Of a stretch of DNA of 41,400 nucleotides, positions 12,893 to 41,208 are shown piece by piece (within the stretch, counting starts at the first letter, position 1; the number at the start of each line of letters is the position of its first letter). The notes under the pieces were generated by a model. That model ran no database searches, was not told the DNA's origin, and saw nothing but the letters and a program-made list of their open reading frames with translations. The stretch is from positions 1-41,400 of the forward strand of contig NZ_AZDA01000128.1 in NCBI RefSeq assembly GCF_001434575.1, in the 5' to 3' direction. The position numbers and the translations under genes are program-made. This DNA is from Loigolactobacillus bifermentans DSM 20003 (GTDB lineage: Bacteria > Bacillota > Bacilli > Lactobacillales > Lactobacillaceae).

Positions 12893-12927
12893 GAAGCCAT
12901 TGCATTTATCAAATCAAGGCTTGCCTT

Positions 12928-12966
12928 GGACTGGTTCGGAAACTTCCCAGGATAAAAAACCAAGAA
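12928..12966 (+). promoter_or_regulatory. Candidate preQ1-I riboswitch
   Basis: The leader contains CTGGTTC (12931-12937), eight bases, CCCAG (12946-12950), then GATAAAAAACC (12951-12961). This matches the preQ1 class I layout GGTTC, eight bases, CCC, closing P1 strand, then ATAAAAAAC. P1 would be CTGG/CCAG; P2 of the pseudoknot would pair GG at 12938-12939 with CC at 12960-12961, which is short. The ribosome binding site AAGGAGG begins at 12974, about 13 bases later, so control of translation start is plausible. Based on memory of the consensus, not a covariance search. Confidence 0.55.
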
Positions 12967-12987
12967 CTTCGCTAAGGAGGTAGGAAA

Positions 12988-35605: not shown

Positions 35606-35634
35606 TTTACAATTAAAAAATAATGCGTTATGCT
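35606..35634 (+). promoter_or_regulatory. Promoter of the T-box operon
   Basis: TTTACA (35606-35611), 17-bp spacer, TATGCT (35629-35634). Confidence 0.65.
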
Positions 35635-35640
35635 ACTACC

Positions 35641-35930
35641 ACATTAAAAAATAATTAAAAAGTGATGAAAAGCAGGAGTACTGATTTGAAGTTTCAGCGA
35701 GCGTTCTGGTGATGTGACGAACGTAACTTAACAATCAGGAAAGTAGGCTTGGAGCGATGGCGGCGACGAAAGAAGTCGTCATTGACTGCCCTCATTATCG
35801 GGCCAGCGAATCTGTCAAATTTATTTGACACGCTCGCAAGGCTGCTGTAACTTAGCGGCAAAAACAAGGTGGTACCGTGCAATCTCAATTGCGCCCTTCG
35901 AGGATTTTTCTTCGTAGGGCGTTTTTTATT
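35641..35930 (+). promoter_or_regulatory. T-box riboswitch, valine type
   Basis: All parts of a T-box leader are present. Stem I has AGTA (35677-35680) opposite GAAAGTAG (35739-35746), between the stems CTGATT/AATCAG and AAGC/GCTT; by the GAA-N-codon pattern the specifier is GTA (35743-35745), a valine codon. The apical GAGC...GGTGATGTGA region is typical. The T-box AAGGTGGTACCGTG is at 35866-35879 with TGGT pairing to a tRNA ending in A plus CCA, as tRNA-Val does. The terminator CGCCCT/AGGGCG with T run is at 35892-35927. Uncharged tRNA-Val should switch on the genes below. Confidence 0.88.
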
Positions 35931-35961
35931 TCAAATTTGATTCACTGGAGGTCGATTTATC

Positions 35962-36699
35962 ATGAACTTATTACATTATCTCAGCACCCATCCCCAAACA
36001 ATTTTACCGGCGGCCGGTGATGGCGCCACATACCAACTTTTAAACGCTGGGCAAGCACCCGCCATTTATTTAGATGCCACGTTAACCACAACAACCTTGT
36101 TGGCAGAACGTAATCCTGGGTTATTGACCATTTCAGAATACGCCAAATTTGTCCGCGATCTACAACTGAAAAAAACAGTGCCGGTGATTGCTGACTTGCA
36201 GTCTGGTTTTGGCAACCCGCTAAACACCTATTACGCCGCACAAGAATTGGAACGCTCGGGTGGTGATATTTTACTGCTAAATGACCAAACTTATCCGGCG
36301 CACAATATGGCACAACCGGCCACTACCACGCCTGCCGATCTGCTAGGCAAAGTGCGCGCCGCCAAGGACAGTTTTGAAAATCCTGCTACCCAACTTTGGG
36401 TGAAACTAGACGGCCTTTGGGATTATGGCGGCGCTGGTGCGCAACAACGCATTCAGTATTTAGCGAAAGCCGGTGCCGATGCCATTGTCCTAGCCCACGC
36501 GGCGACAACCTTGTTGCAAGCCCTAACCGCCAGACCACAACCGCTCCCATTGCTGGCCACTTGGACCCCTGCCACCAATATGATCGACGGGATCACCGGC
36601 TGGTTGGATACCGGTTATTTGGCCCAACAAGCCCACCAGGCCCAGGCTACAGCGTTACAGACGTTATTGAAAGGAGCACTCGCTTATGCTGAAAAATGA
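35962..36699 (+). CDS. Non-catalytic isocitrate lyase/PEP mutase-like protein
   Basis: A 245-residue TIM-barrel of the ICL/PEPM superfamily by its VIADLQSGFGNPLNTYYAAQ segment (76-94), which aligns with ADADTGYGN. The metal ligands have changed: the second Asp of DxDxGxG is Gln80 and the IED Glu is Asn107. The active-site loop with Cys (KRCGH type) is missing between 110 and 125. It should bind but hardly cleave a substrate, and may regulate or partner the next protein, with which it overlaps by 14 nt. First gene after the T-box; GGAGG precedes the ATG. Confidence 0.75.
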   Translation: MNLLHYLSTHPQTILPAAGDGATYQLLNAGQAPAIYLDATLTTTTLLAERNPGLLTISEYAKFVRDLQLKKTVPVIADLQSGFGNPLNTYYAAQELERSGGDILLLNDQTYPAHNMAQPATTTPADLLGKVRAAKDSFENPATQLWVKLDGLWDYGGAGAQQRIQYLAKAGADAIVLAHAATTLLQALTARPQPLPLLATWTPATNMIDGITGWLDTGYLAQQAHQAQATALQTLLKGALAYAEK

Positions 36700-37591
36700 A
36701 CAAATGCGTTATCAATTTAAAACCGAAGTCATGAGTGGCCACATTGTCCGCATGGTGGTTGCCCCAGACGCCTTAGCCGCTAAAATTGCTGAACAAGCTG
36801 GTGCCCAAGCAATTTTCTCTGCTGGTTATGCCACCAGCGCGTCTACCTTAGCCATGCCAGACCGTGGCATTAGCGATTTCAGTATGGCGCTCGAACGGTG
36901 TCGGGAGATCATTAATGCCACCAACATTCCAGTTTTTGCTGACGCCGATACCGGCTATGGTGACTTGGATAACGTGCGCCGAACAGTTGAAAATTATGAA
37001 GCCATCGGTGCCTGTGGCATTTTCATCGAAGATCAAGTTTGGCCGAAACGTTGTGGCCACATGGCCGGTAAAAAGGTTGAACCCACTGAGGTCTTAGAAG
37101 CTAAAATTCGGGCCGCCAAAGCCGCCCGGAAACACGACGACTTTTTGATCATGTCGCGTACAGACGCCCGGGCTGTTTATGGCTTAGCTGATGCCATCGA
37201 CCGTAGCCGACGTTACCAAGCCGCTGGCGCCGATCTGATTTTCATCGAAGCCCCACAAAGTGTCGCTGAATTAGAACAGATCCACGCGGCTTTTCCACAA
37301 ACACCACTCATGGCCAACATGATCGAAGGTGGCAAAACACCACTCACCACGGCTGCTGATTTGGAACAATTAGGCTTTAACATCGTGGTCCACCCAACGG
37401 CCATGACCTACACTCAAGCTTATGCTGAAGAACAATTGCTCCAAACACTACAGCATGACGGTACCACCACGGCTGCCGAAGCACAAATGATTACTTTTAA
37501 CAAGTTCAATCAATTTGTCGGTTTGAATCAAGTCAACACCCGTGAGGCGCAGTACGCCCCAGAAAATATGACGCAATATATGGAGGGCTAG
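36686..37591 (+). CDS. Isocitrate lyase/PEP mutase family lyase
   Basis: A 301-residue enzyme with all active-site features: DADTGYG (Asp86, Asp88), IEDQ with Glu115, the loop PKRCGHMAGK with Cys123 and His125, SRTDA with Arg158 and MANMIEGGKTP. These fit the 2-methylisocitrate lyase, 2,3-dimethylmalate lyase or oxaloacetate hydrolase branch, which splits a C-C bond of a 2-hydroxy dicarboxylate to give a 2-keto acid such as pyruvate. No methylcitrate synthase or dehydratase gene is nearby, which speaks against the propionate cycle. AAAGGAG precedes the ATG. Valine-type T-box control suggests that a product feeds valine synthesis. Confidence 0.82.
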   Translation: MLKNEQMRYQFKTEVMSGHIVRMVVAPDALAAKIAEQAGAQAIFSAGYATSASTLAMPDRGISDFSMALERCREIINATNIPVFADADTGYGDLDNVRRTVENYEAIGACGIFIEDQVWPKRCGHMAGKKVEPTEVLEAKIRAAKAARKHDDFLIMSRTDARAVYGLADAIDRSRRYQAAGADLIFIEAPQSVAELEQIHAAFPQTPLMANMIEGGKTPLTTAADLEQLGFNIVVHPTAMTYTQAYAEEQLLQTLQHDGTTTAAEAQMITFNKFNQFVGLNQVNTREAQYAPENMTQYMEG

Positions 37592-37593
37592 TT

Positions 37594-38883
37594 ATGGAAG
37601 CAAAATTAAGTTTAGAGCAACAACTCAACACGGCGCGAGAAACGCCTTTATTCTATAAAGTATTCGCATTGGCCAGTGCCGGGATGATTTTAGATGCTGC
37701 CGACGTGTACATGGCCAGTGCCATTAACAGCGCCATGGTGGCCCAAGGCTTTGCCACGATTCAACAAGGCTCCCTCTTTTTATCTAGCGGATTTTTAGGA
37801 TTATTTATTGGCTCAGTTTTATCTGGCTATATTGGTGATTTTTATGGGCGTAAAAAATCTTATCAAATCAACTTGCTATTATTCGGTGCCTTTACCTTGC
37901 TAGCTGCTTTTGCACCTAATATCACCCTATTGATCATTTGTCGGTTAATTGCTGCTATTGGATTAGGCGCCGAGATCGTCACTGGTTATGCGGTGGTCAA
38001 CGAATTTGCCCCTATTAAACGGCGGGGACACTGGTCAGGCTTAAATGCCATTGTGGCCAATACCGGCGCACCGATCACGTTGTTGATTGCCACCTTTGCG
38101 ATTCCACGGTTAGGCTGGCGTTCAATGTTCATTATTATGGGCCTGTGCGCATTACTGCTATGGCTGTTACGGCGGCATTTTCCTGAATCTCCCCGTTGGT
38201 TGTTGGCCAAAGGGCGTCGGGATGAAGCCGATGTTATCATTCAACAATTAACCACCCGTGGATTGTACGCTGACGATGACTTTAGTGACCACCATCAGCC
38301 GGTTAGCCACGTTAGCTTTGCTCACGGTCTATTTATCGCCATTGTTGGGGTCAGTGCCACCTTATTATGCCAATACACGTTCACGTCATGGATGCCAACT
38401 TTGTTGTTAAAACGTGGCATTAGTATTGTGAGCTCCATTGGATTTTCCGCCATTATGATGTTAGGTGCGCCAGTTGGTGCTGCGATTGGCGCTGCCTTAG
38501 TGGATCATGCTGGTCGGAAAAAAGTCATTATCACCACCTTTATGACTACTGCCATTTTAGGGATTATTTACGCTTACGAGACCACCACCATTGGAATCGT
38601 CTTAAACGGCTTCTTGCTGACCATTTCACTGTATGCGTCTATGGCTACGGTGATCAGCGTTTATACGAATGAATTATTCGAAACCACTCATCGTTTCCGT
38701 GGTGCTGGAATTGCCAATGGTGTTTCAAAGCTGTTAAACGTTTTAATGCCAACGGTTGTTGCTTTTATGATCACCCAAGTTGCCACTGCTTTCATTTATT
38801 ATGGGATTGCGGTCTTAGCCTTGATTGCCGCAATCGTCATTGGGTTATGGGGCCCTGAAACCAACGATAAGGCCATTAAATAA
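37594..38883 (+). CDS. MFS transporter, metabolite:H+ symporter type
   Basis: A 429-residue permease with 12 membrane helices. Motif A is GDFYGRKKSYQ between helices 2 and 3, and PESPRWLLAKGRRDEA follows helix 6 as in sugar-porter and aromatic/organic-acid symporters. Third gene of the T-box operon, two bases after the lyase stop codon and with its own GGAGG. It probably imports the lyase substrate, an organic acid, though export cannot be excluded. Confidence 0.85.
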   Translation: MEAKLSLEQQLNTARETPLFYKVFALASAGMILDAADVYMASAINSAMVAQGFATIQQGSLFLSSGFLGLFIGSVLSGYIGDFYGRKKSYQINLLLFGAFTLLAAFAPNITLLIICRLIAAIGLGAEIVTGYAVVNEFAPIKRRGHWSGLNAIVANTGAPITLLIATFAIPRLGWRSMFIIMGLCALLLWLLRRHFPESPRWLLAKGRRDEADVIIQQLTTRGLYADDDFSDHHQPVSHVSFAHGLFIAIVGVSATLLCQYTFTSWMPTLLLKRGISIVSSIGFSAIMMLGAPVGAAIGAALVDHAGRKKVIITTFMTTAILGIIYAYETTTIGIVLNGFLLTISLYASMATVISVYTNELFETTHRFRGAGIANGVSKLLNVLMPTVVAFMITQVATAFIYYGIAVLALIAAIVIGLWGPETNDKAIK

Positions 38884-38902
38884 CCGCTGATTTTAAAAAG
38901 CT

Positions 38903-38939
38903 GATTGCGCGATACATTTCATAACGCAATCCGTTTTTT
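38903..38939 (+). terminator. Terminator of the T-box operon
   Basis: GATTGCG (38903-38909) pairs with CGCAATC (38925-38931), then CG and seven Ts. Confidence 0.7.
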
Positions 38940-38990
38940 TGATGGCCAGTGTTTCATTTTGATTGTTCATTCACAAAAAGCCTTTCAATT

Positions 38991-39077: not shown

Positions 39078-40073
39078 ATGAAAACTTTGTTCAAACAGTT
39101 CAAGCCCACCACGCATTTTTCAGATGACGCCGTGCGCCAAGCTGAACCGGTGGCCGTGCTTGACATTGTACCCACTCGTCAGTCCCAACTCGAAAACGCC
39201 GCTATCCTTTTTCATTACCAACCTTTAACTCATTATGTCGCCCGCTATCAAATTTACGTCGAAAATGATAGCGATTACACATTGTGGGTCGACTTAGGCC
39301 TGGAAAATCAGCTCTGTCTTGGTACGTTGACGCTGACAGCAGACACTGCCGCTAAGCTTCAACAATATGGTGATAACCTGGCCGCCCATTATGCCCGCGA
39401 TACCCACAAATTACGATTAATGGTGGCCTTGTTTACCGGTCCCTTGATCAGCGCCTATCGCAATCATTTTTTAGCTAATTTAGCGACTAACGACCAGCAA
39501 CTTTTTTCACCTTCAGAAGGACTGTTTAAAGTTCCTACCGTATCTGAACCAGTGGCCCAACGTACGATTCCGGTGGACCACCAGTATGACGCCTTGTTAA
39601 ATGCAGGCCACACCACAGCCGAATGTTTTAAAATTCTACGCGATCAGGCCGATTTTCACCTAAGCAGTCAGTTAAATATGCCAAACGGTGATCCAGCCAC
39701 TGGCCCATTGCCAGCGTTTGAAAACTTAAAGTTGGCGCTGTTTGATGCGCCAGTGAACGCAACTTATCAAGATACAGCCGTCACGCTTGCGCCGGATGCC
39801 AGTGCACTTACCGTTCAAATCACCCGGCCAGATCTATTTCAAATGTCAGCTTTACAGCTCTGCTATAAACCGCACACCAACATTAACTTTTTAAGTCGGG
39901 TCAACGCGCAACACGCGCCCTACCAGTTTGGTCGCATTCAGTATAATGTATTGGCGCATTTAGACGACCAATGGCACTGCTACTACTTGCCAGATTGGCA
40001 CTTCACATTGAACACCACGGATGCACTAGAACAAATTTTTATTAACGATTATTTATTTTTCTTCCATTATTAG
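39078..40073 (+). CDS. Protein of unknown function
   Basis: A 331-residue soluble protein with no signal peptide or membrane helix and no family I recognise. It is rich in Leu, Ala, Asp, Gln and His, with long mixed helix and strand stretches, e.g. YQIYVENDSDYTLWVDLGLE and a YYLPDWHF-containing end. GGAGGACTCGCAC precedes the ATG. A single-gene unit with its own terminator. Confidence 0.6.
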   Translation: MKTLFKQFKPTTHFSDDAVRQAEPVAVLDIVPTRQSQLENAAILFHYQPLTHYVARYQIYVENDSDYTLWVDLGLENQLCLGTLTLTADTAAKLQQYGDNLAAHYARDTHKLRLMVALFTGPLISAYRNHFLANLATNDQQLFSPSEGLFKVPTVSEPVAQRTIPVDHQYDALLNAGHTTAECFKILRDQADFHLSSQLNMPNGDPATGPLPAFENLKLALFDAPVNATYQDTAVTLAPDASALTVQITRPDLFQMSALQLCYKPHTNINFLSRVNAQHAPYQFGRIQYNVLAHLDDQWHCYYLPDWHFTLNTTDALEQIFINDYLFFFHY

Positions 40074-40522: not shown

Positions 40523-40789
40523 TGTATCGCCCCCAATACTTTGCATATTAGCTATCCAAATCAACCACCTATTGATCGAAATTATCTAACGCCTTAAACC
40601 CAATTTGATCACGTTTTGATCTGACACGGCTATTATTACAACCCACTAACACAAAGTCAACCGGCTACGCGAACATCCGTTTGAAAATGAGTTGTGTAAC
40701 GCTTGGCAATTCACTGACCAGCCCTATAAAATAAATTTCAAAACTATTTTTTAAATTTTTCAGTATTATTTTGCGTATCAACCGCAAGC
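40523..40789. other. Degenerate stretch
   Basis: No intact gene. On the minus strand VDFVLVGCNNSRVRSKR is readable near 40595-40660. CACTAAC and CACAAAGTCA recur in the same order in the toxin remnant (about 40156-40174) and here (about 40650-40667), hinting at a duplicated remnant. Confidence 0.3.
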
Positions 40790-40820
40790 AAAAACCACCA
40801 TTCACAGCGAATGGTGGTTT
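40790..40820 (-). terminator. Terminator of the surface-protein remnant
   Basis: AAACCACCATTC (40792-40803), 5-nt loop, GAATGGTGGTTT (40809-40820), T run on the minus strand. Confidence 0.75.
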
Positions 40821-40825
40821 CACAG

Positions 40826-40933
40826 TTAGTTTGATTTTCGGGTCAAGGCTTTGCCGAGCGTTGTGCCAATTGCCAACAAGCCTAAGCCGATCATCGTTAG
40901 CAACGACGATTTTGTCTCATCTGTTTGCTACAA
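40826..40933 (-). pseudogene. C-terminal remnant of an LPXTG surface protein
   Basis: The minus frame from 40933 reads L, stop, QTDET, then KSSLLTMIGLGLLAIGTT and LGKALTRKSN before a stop. This is a sortase tail: LPXTG-like motif (LPQTGDE degenerated to L-stop-QTDE), hydrophobic helix, basic end. The Pro codon became a stop and the Gly codon is missing. Nothing of the exported protein remains upstream, where the csbD promoter now lies. Confidence 0.6.
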
Positions 40934-40941
40934 CACATTGC

Positions 40942-40971
40942 TTGAATCCTAGACTTGACGCTTGTTACAAT
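40942..40971 (+). promoter_or_regulatory. Promoter of the csbD-like gene
   Basis: TTGAAT (40942-40947), 18-bp spacer, TACAAT (40966-40971). Confidence 0.5.
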
Positions 40972-41001
40972 AACAGTATTCCTAGGAAAGGTGGTTCAAA
41001 C

Positions 41002-41208
41002 ATGACCGAAAACGAAAAATTTGAGAGCCAAAAGGACCAACTTGCCGGCAAAGCGAAGGAAGCCGGCGGCAAGCTCACCGACGACAAAGAACTTGAAGCG
41101 GAAGGCAAAACCCAAAGCACTGCTGGGAAAGCCAAGGAAAAGTTAGCGGACGCCAAAGAAACAGCCAAAGGCGCCGTGGACGAACTGAAACGGAAACTCA
41201 AAGACTGA
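41002..41208 (+). CDS. CsbD-family stress protein
   Basis: A 68-residue, highly charged protein of Lys, Glu, Ala, Gly and Asp. KDQLAGKAKEAGGKLTDD then AEGKTQSTAGKAKEKL are the two CsbD repeats. Such proteins are induced by general stress in Bacilli; the mechanism is unknown. The ATG at 41002 follows GAAAGGTGG; a longer in-frame extension to 40771 crosses the surface-protein remnant and is rejected. Confidence 0.88.
   Translation: MTENEKFESQKDQLAGKAKEAGGKLTDDKELEAEGKTQSTAGKAKEKLADAKETAKGAVDELKRKLKD

Follow-up and report, generated by a model that had tools for sequence, protein, structure and literature searches.

The solved structure closest in sequence to the lyase described here is that of the petal death protein of carnation (1zlp, 211 bits), presumably a 2-alkylmalate lyase and oxaloacetate hydrolase that accepts several 2-alkylmalates. 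The lyase is encoded with a non-catalytic paralogue and a transporter of the major facilitator superfamily (MFS), downstream of a T-box leader, in a stretch of 41,400 nucleotides from Loigolactobacillus bifermentans DSM 20003 (contig NZ_AZDA01000128.1, positions 1 to 41,400). The whole of this stretch is called the window. T-box-regulated transporters are already on record and include MFS proteins for lysine and LIVCS proteins for valine, according to the part of PMC2494555 that was available. We propose, with a probability of about 0.65, that in this locus a valine-starvation switch controls the scavenging of 2-isopropylmalate, which would be imported, cleaved to 2-ketoisovalerate and transaminated to valine.

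The T-box, the lyase fold and the MFS transporter are each of a known kind; none of the open-access papers listed in the searches was seen to describe their combination, the substrate or the route. Those papers likewise yielded no description of an isopropylmalate lyase, of a bacterial isopropylmalate transporter or of a T-box before such genes. The phrase "isopropylmalate transport" did occur in three papers, two about sideroflexins and one about rice genomes, and the string "isopropylmal" is absent from the main text of PMC5660601, as far as that text was accessible. This agrees with the initial annotation of the window, made from the letters alone, which knew of no described system of this make-up.

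The valine-type T-box leader

The leader and the operon comprise the following features.

35656..35901, forward strand: T-box leader RF00230, valine type, found by cmscan
35743..35745, forward strand: specifier codon GUA (Val), read in the frame obtained by comparison with other T-boxes of this genome
35870..35873, forward strand: UGGU antiterminator bulge, from the sequence
35891..35927, forward strand: intrinsic terminator of the switch (hairpin with T-run), by RNA folding
35962..36699, forward strand: paralogue of 245 amino acids in the phosphoenolpyruvate (PEP) mutase/isocitrate lyase superfamily, without metal and catalytic residues (PF13714)
36686..37591, forward strand: lyase of 301 amino acids, proposed (2S)-2-isopropylmalate lyase (PF13714, 148.4 bits)
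37594..38883, forward strand: MFS transporter of 429 amino acids, proposed isopropylmalate importer (PF07690/PF00083)

The full set of T-box parts claimed initially was recovered by a covariance-model search of the window, in which RF00230 was matched over its entire length (model positions 1-219 of 219) with 100.4 bits against a gathering threshold of 93 (E-value 3.8e-21). The terminator, a strong hairpin at 35891-35922 with a T-run behind it, folds with -21.3 kcal/mol and overlaps the 3' side of the T-box. The specifier loop reads GAA-A-GUA-G, with GAA at 35739-35741, the N position at 35742, GUA at 35743-35745 and the purine at 35746.

The frame of the specifier was calibrated on the T-boxes of the same genome, in which 43 matches were obtained at E ≤ 0.001, 18 of them above the cut-off. 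Fourteen other leaders with a recognisable downstream gene were read by eye, the script's own specifier list giving several possible frames for them; the genes were named with NCBIfam, except for ileS, cysS, pheS, tyrS and hisZ, which were recognised by eye. When counted from the 3' side (codon, purine, then eight nucleotides with AG at the end), the expected codon was found in nine of the 14 leaders: GUA for valS, GUA and AUC in tandem for ilvB, GUA and AUC for two brnQ genes, CUC for leuS, UGG for trpS, UCC for serS and AUC for a panE-like gene. By the same rule, the window leader reads GUA. In the five others (ileS, cysS, pheS, tyrS and hisZ), the expected codon and purine were present with a different 3' spacing; under the spacing of nine of the pheS leader, the window specifier would become AGU. 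The leaders of valS, ilvB and brnQ have GAA[AG]GUA[AG] in common, which favours the GUA reading, and the window's GAAAGUAG agrees with these valine leaders.

A serine specifier (AGU) is thus disfavoured by the calibration, by this common motif and by the valine-rich leaders of homologous operons presented below. The initial annotation had instead excluded serine by the UGGU bulge, an argument that fails because UGGU also occurs in this genome's leaders of serS and trpS; its GTA (Val) assignment by the GAA-N-codon rule stood. The covariance model and the codon comparison together confirm the window leader as a genuine valine-type T-box, with a predicted response to uncharged tRNA-Val. Elsewhere in the genome, an isoleucine-type T-box (AUC) lies upstream of a panE/ApbA-family reductase gene (L014). 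Tandem methionine-type T-boxes were also noted (L010, L026), before a gene whose product resembles, by eye, the uroporphyrinogen decarboxylase/corrinoid methyltransferase family.

Conservation of the operon and its control

In order to follow the operon in relatives, the lyase was searched in 397 Lactobacillaceae genomes (E ≤ 1e-40). It was found in 33 of them, spread over 11 of the 40 genera, as 37 copies, and the upstream region was read for every copy; specifiers and leader peptides were read by eye, apart from some pattern checks. A GUA T-box precedes 22 of the 37 operons (L087-L108, window copy included), and all 22 show both GAAAGUA[AG] and UGGU. In two further operons (L110, L111), the stem I of the T-box is atypical. 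Conservation of the valine T-box across homologues was observed for these 22 copies and not for an operon with an isoleucine T-box, for one with an isoleucine-rich leader and for seven in which neither a T-box nor a leader peptide was seen upstream; four of these seven are adjacent to a regulator-like gene.

Furthermore, four operons (L124, L125, L126, L127) are preceded by a short open reading frame with a valine run instead, L124 also having a leucine run. The isoleucine-rich leader belongs to L122, whose genome also contains the valine copy L125. In all five, consecutive Val or Ile codons in a short frame lie upstream of a terminator, as in leader-peptide attenuators; the terminator was computed for L125, L126 and L127 and identified by eye for L122 and L124, where the script took another T-run. 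Among 342 control upstream regions of other genes in the fetched loci, no comparable VVV leader was observed, with LLL in 11 and III in three. The valine link thus does not depend on the T-box alone, since valine-rich leader peptides precede four operons devoid of a T-box.

An order-wide search (315 genomes, E ≤ 1e-70) located the lyase in five genomes, three of them outside the family; a GUA T-box is present in two of these three and none was seen in the third (L217). The Aerococcus loci L048 and L058 also have a GUA T-box before the operon. The gene-neighbourhood survey of the lyase pair, suggested initially as a check, shows the operon with valine control recurring across genera.

The lyase, its paralogue and the transporter

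The three genes of the operon are packed tightly, the start of the lyase gene overlapping the preceding paralogue gene by 14 nucleotides. The lyase was initially described as catalytically intact, and its residues D86, D88, E115, K121, C123, R158, E188 and N211 are invariant among 31 sequences; the motif KRCGH is present. Its fold, combined with DxD, ED, KxCGH, R158, E188 and N211, which we take to be catalytic and metal-binding residues, places it in the PEP mutase/isocitrate lyase superfamily. The AlphaFold2 model of the lyase had a mean confidence (predicted local distance difference test, pLDDT) of 92.1, and a Foldseek search with this model returned chains of the petal death protein at ranks 2 and 4 (40% identity, 1.5-1.6 Å). 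A role in the methylisocitrate cycle was rejected, since the lyase reaches 248.6 bits with TIGR02317, the PrpB equivalog, whose cut-off is 354.4. No prp genes were recognised by eye in the neighbourhoods read. The 301-residue protein is proposed to be a 2-isopropylmalate lyase.

The 245-residue paralogue passes the family profile (PF13714, 43.8 bits against a cut-off of 31.5). As the initial annotation had noticed, it is devoid of the catalytic apparatus: D78-x-Q80 replaces DxD, N107-D108 replaces ED and KxCGH is missing, so that the second metal Asp (Q80), the Glu (N107) and the Cys motif are all lost. It retains the conserved motifs DxQ[SA]GFG, [NS]DQ and PxH (20 sequences). In one genome (L130), paralogue and lyase are fused in a single frame of 546 amino acids. 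The AlphaFold2 confidence of this fusion was mostly above 90 in the lyase half, mostly 47-85 in the paralogue half and about 30 in the linker, with a predicted template modelling score (pTM) of 0.60. In view of the fusion, the paralogue is probably a partner subunit of the lyase.

The transporter, predicted initially to be of the organic-acid type, scored 174.4 bits with TIGR00895 (aromatic acid/H+ symporter), below the cut-off of 418.55. Its nearest relative in the same genome is the MFS protein encoded right after leuABCD (54%, 493 bits), the next best reaching 91 bits. When the MFS family was searched in the 397 genomes (E ≤ 1e-80), 100 rows were obtained, one gene in G335 being counted twice. 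Of these, 40 have leuA at a distance of up to 6.5 kb and 31 the lyase gene at up to 5 kb, the remaining 29 lying elsewhere. Among these 29, 16 belong to leuBCD clusters, one of which (L209) meets a contig end and shows leuCD only, and one stands behind leuB alone (L203), which brings the rows close to leu genes to 57 of 100. Of the others, three have only a Val T-box (L186-L188), two a leucine element (L192, L202), two an unclear T-box (L193, L194), two lie in an operon with a gene resembling that of branched-chain aminotransferase (BCAT; L204, L205) and three have nothing clear (L195, L201, L214).

The MFS family was present in all 33 lyase genomes against 45 of the 364 others, and, where leuA or the lyase is present, in 72 of 90 genomes, against 6 of 307 having neither. 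Chance was rejected as the source of this link (Fisher p 6e-27 and 3e-54, with no correction for kinship). Reading of 47 leuA loci showed leuABCD in 41, and in 25 of these 41 an MFS gene of the transporter's family is located 3' of leuD. Most leu clusters have a leader peptide with terminal leucines; a T-box is found instead in L132, L159 and L179. In six lyase genomes (G151, G215, G297, G344, G362, G379), no MFS gene accompanies the lyase and the sole copy is in the leu cluster, as if one carrier supplied both operons. In the MFS tree, lyase- and leu-associated copies mostly cluster with their own kind, neither forming one clade (at least two and three changes). As a separate observation, leuA is found without adjacent leuBCD, behind its own leucine-rich leader, in L137, L158, L163, L164, L178 and L180.

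The proposed route and its comparison with known systems

The route proposed from these sequence data would begin with uncharged tRNA-Val, upon which the GUA T-box would permit transcription past the terminator. The MFS protein would then take up 2-isopropylmalate from the environment, where yeast or plant material would supply it, and the petal-death-protein-like lyase, probably aided by its non-catalytic paralogue, would cleave it into acetate and 2-ketoisovalerate by a retro-Claisen reaction. A single transamination by the branched-chain aminotransferase would convert 2-ketoisovalerate into valine; a BCAT match was obtained in 31 of the 33 lyase genomes, 28 above the cut-off and three below it (two weak, one in pieces). 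With the transporter relatives of leu clusters, the same imported compound would be led to leucine via LeuCD and LeuB. 2-Isopropylmalate is favoured as substrate because it is the compound that would suit a 2-alkylmalate lyase as well as LeuCD. The petal death protein presumably cleaves (2R)-2-alkylmalates, and the LeuA product (2S)-2-isopropylmalate corresponds spatially to (2R)-2-ethylmalate, because isopropyl outranks carboxymethyl in naming. The portions of PMC11219324 and PMC12294674 that were available name 2-isopropylmalic acid as a metabolite, in fermented vinegar and in coffee fermentation respectively.

The direction of transport is suggested by four genomes that are 99% complete (G096, G287, G342, G352), in which leuBCD-MFS is present and no leuA was found, the only match being a weak one in G096 (21 bits). 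Since leuBCD without LeuA would make sense only with external isopropylmalate, import may be assumed, and the same four genomes make it unlikely that the MFS protein exports surplus isopropylmalate. The initial annotation had postulated the uptake of a branched 2-hydroxy dicarboxylate and its cleavage to a 2-keto acid feeding valine. This interpretation is largely supported, as it fits the valine-rich leaders and the association of the transporter with leu genes, and its substrate may now be narrowed to 2-isopropylmalate.

Several observations weigh against the proposed route. For the enzyme, the best Foldseek match by E-value is the methylisocitrate lyase 3eoo (34% identity, 3.2 Å). For the regulation, L123 has an isoleucine T-box (AUC) by the same 3' count, though a C follows. 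In addition, four genomes (L118-L121) have a second paralogue-lyase set in which no valine element or amino-acid leader was seen; a regulator-like gene is adjacent (Mga by Pfam in L118, the one tested; in pieces in L119) and the MFS gene is in the opposite orientation. For the transporter, 18 of the 90 genomes with leuA or lyase have none and are misfits, and G082 (L203) has leuB-MFS only and matches for neither leuA nor leuC, a situation compatible with 3-isopropylmalate or with decay. Val T-boxes stand directly before the MFS gene with no adjacent lyase gene in L186-L188, and two genomes with Val T-box and transporter (G162, G267) gave no lyase hit at E ≤ 1e-40. Finally, the genome of the window has de novo valine genes.

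The Val T-boxes before the MFS gene alone would be explained if the cargo consisted of branched-chain 2-keto or 2-hydroxy acids (ketoisovalerate, ketoisocaproate), the lyase then having another function or a different 2-alkylmalate as substrate. The loci L204 and L205 point in the same direction and equally weigh against 2-isopropylmalate: two MFS paralogues of 41% stand there in an operon that also contains BCAT-like and panE-like genes, a context that would fit keto or hydroxy acids as cargo. However, the leuBCD-MFS clusters without leuA require isopropylmalate and not a keto acid. Moreover, a dicarboxylate carrier takes the place of the MFS protein elsewhere: the third gene of the Aerococcus locus L048 encodes one of the MatC/CitMHS type by Pfam, and look-alikes, judged by resemblance, occur at L217-L219. 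Such a cargo is thus considered rather unlikely. The operon of L204 and L205 also contains an alcohol dehydrogenase-like gene (by eye), and its aminotransferase is a weak BCAT match.

In the genome of the window, ilvB, ilvC, ilvA and bcaT were found, together with ilvN and an ilvD-like frame that were recognised by eye, the latter being truncated by the locus end, so that replacement of a missing valine pathway was rejected there and the route would supplement synthesis. More generally, ilvC is enriched in lyase genomes (18 of 33 against 30 of 364 others, a test not corrected for kinship), and the route may therefore often be a supplement. These genes could also speak for internal recycling, in which a LeuA without regulatory domain would overdraw 2-ketoisovalerate and the lyase would return 2-isopropylmalate to it during valine shortage. 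The genome of the window has leuABCD in addition to ilvC, its LeuA has 399 amino acids, and a leuA match was obtained in 28 of the 33 lyase genomes, none above the full-length cut-off. Yet five lyase genomes have no leuA match, 15 of the 33 are without ilvC and the transporter family accompanies the lyase in every one, which makes recycling improbable.

The enrichment in ilvC and the two operons with an isoleucine element (L122, L123) would also suit another 2-alkylmalate, such as citramalate or 2-ethylmalate, cleaved to pyruvate or 2-ketobutyrate for the branched-chain pathway, given the several 2-alkylmalates that the petal death protein presumably takes. We hold this very improbable, because it leaves unexplained both the transporter in leuBCD clusters and the lyase in the 15 genomes without ilvC.

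With 2-isopropylmalate as the shared substrate, the odds lean slightly towards a wider isopropylmalate economy in Lactobacillaceae and relatives. There, one importer would serve leucine synthesis under leucine attenuators and valine synthesis under Val T-boxes or attenuators, through a complex of lyase and pseudoenzyme, and some species lacking leuA would depend on 2-isopropylmalate for leucine. If this is true, valine would have an extra route from an intermediate of the leucine branch, and bacteria would possess an isopropylmalate importer and lyase. In fermented foods, the compound would pass as a shared metabolite between yeasts or plants on the one side and lactic acid bacteria on the other, leuBCD clusters without leuA would be scavenging and not broken pathways, and a function would be assigned to a transporter and to a pseudoenzyme family.

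Downstream of the transporter gene, one further feature of the operon was noted.

38903..38940, forward strand: probable operon terminator (GATTGCG...CGCAATC and T-run), identified by eye

Beyond it, the window contains a frame of 331 amino acids (39078-40073, forward strand) with no Pfam or NCBIfam match at E ≤ 0.001, and a frame (40771-41208, forward strand) whose end resembles, by eye, a CsbD-type stress protein. A PreQ1 riboswitch match was obtained at 12925-12969 (forward strand; 40.5 bits against a threshold of 39).

Compared with known systems, the lyase shares the KxCGH and SGY/AGY motifs with the petal death protein but is bacterial, has an invariant Pro237 where that protein has an aligned Ser, and is encoded, under valine control, together with a pseudoenzyme and a transporter. 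It has the fold and the catalytic residues of 2-methylisocitrate lyase PrpB, whereas it falls below the equivalog cut-off of the latter and shows 31-35% identity in the Foldseek rows shown. The leuABCD clusters of the same bacterial family are accompanied by an MFS gene of the same transporter family; in contrast to the window operon, they are under leucine control, mostly by a leucine-rich leader peptide, and have no lyase. The leader has the GUA specifier and the architecture of the T-boxes of valS, ilvB and brnQ, but the genes under its control encode a lyase, a pseudoenzyme and an organic-acid-type transporter.

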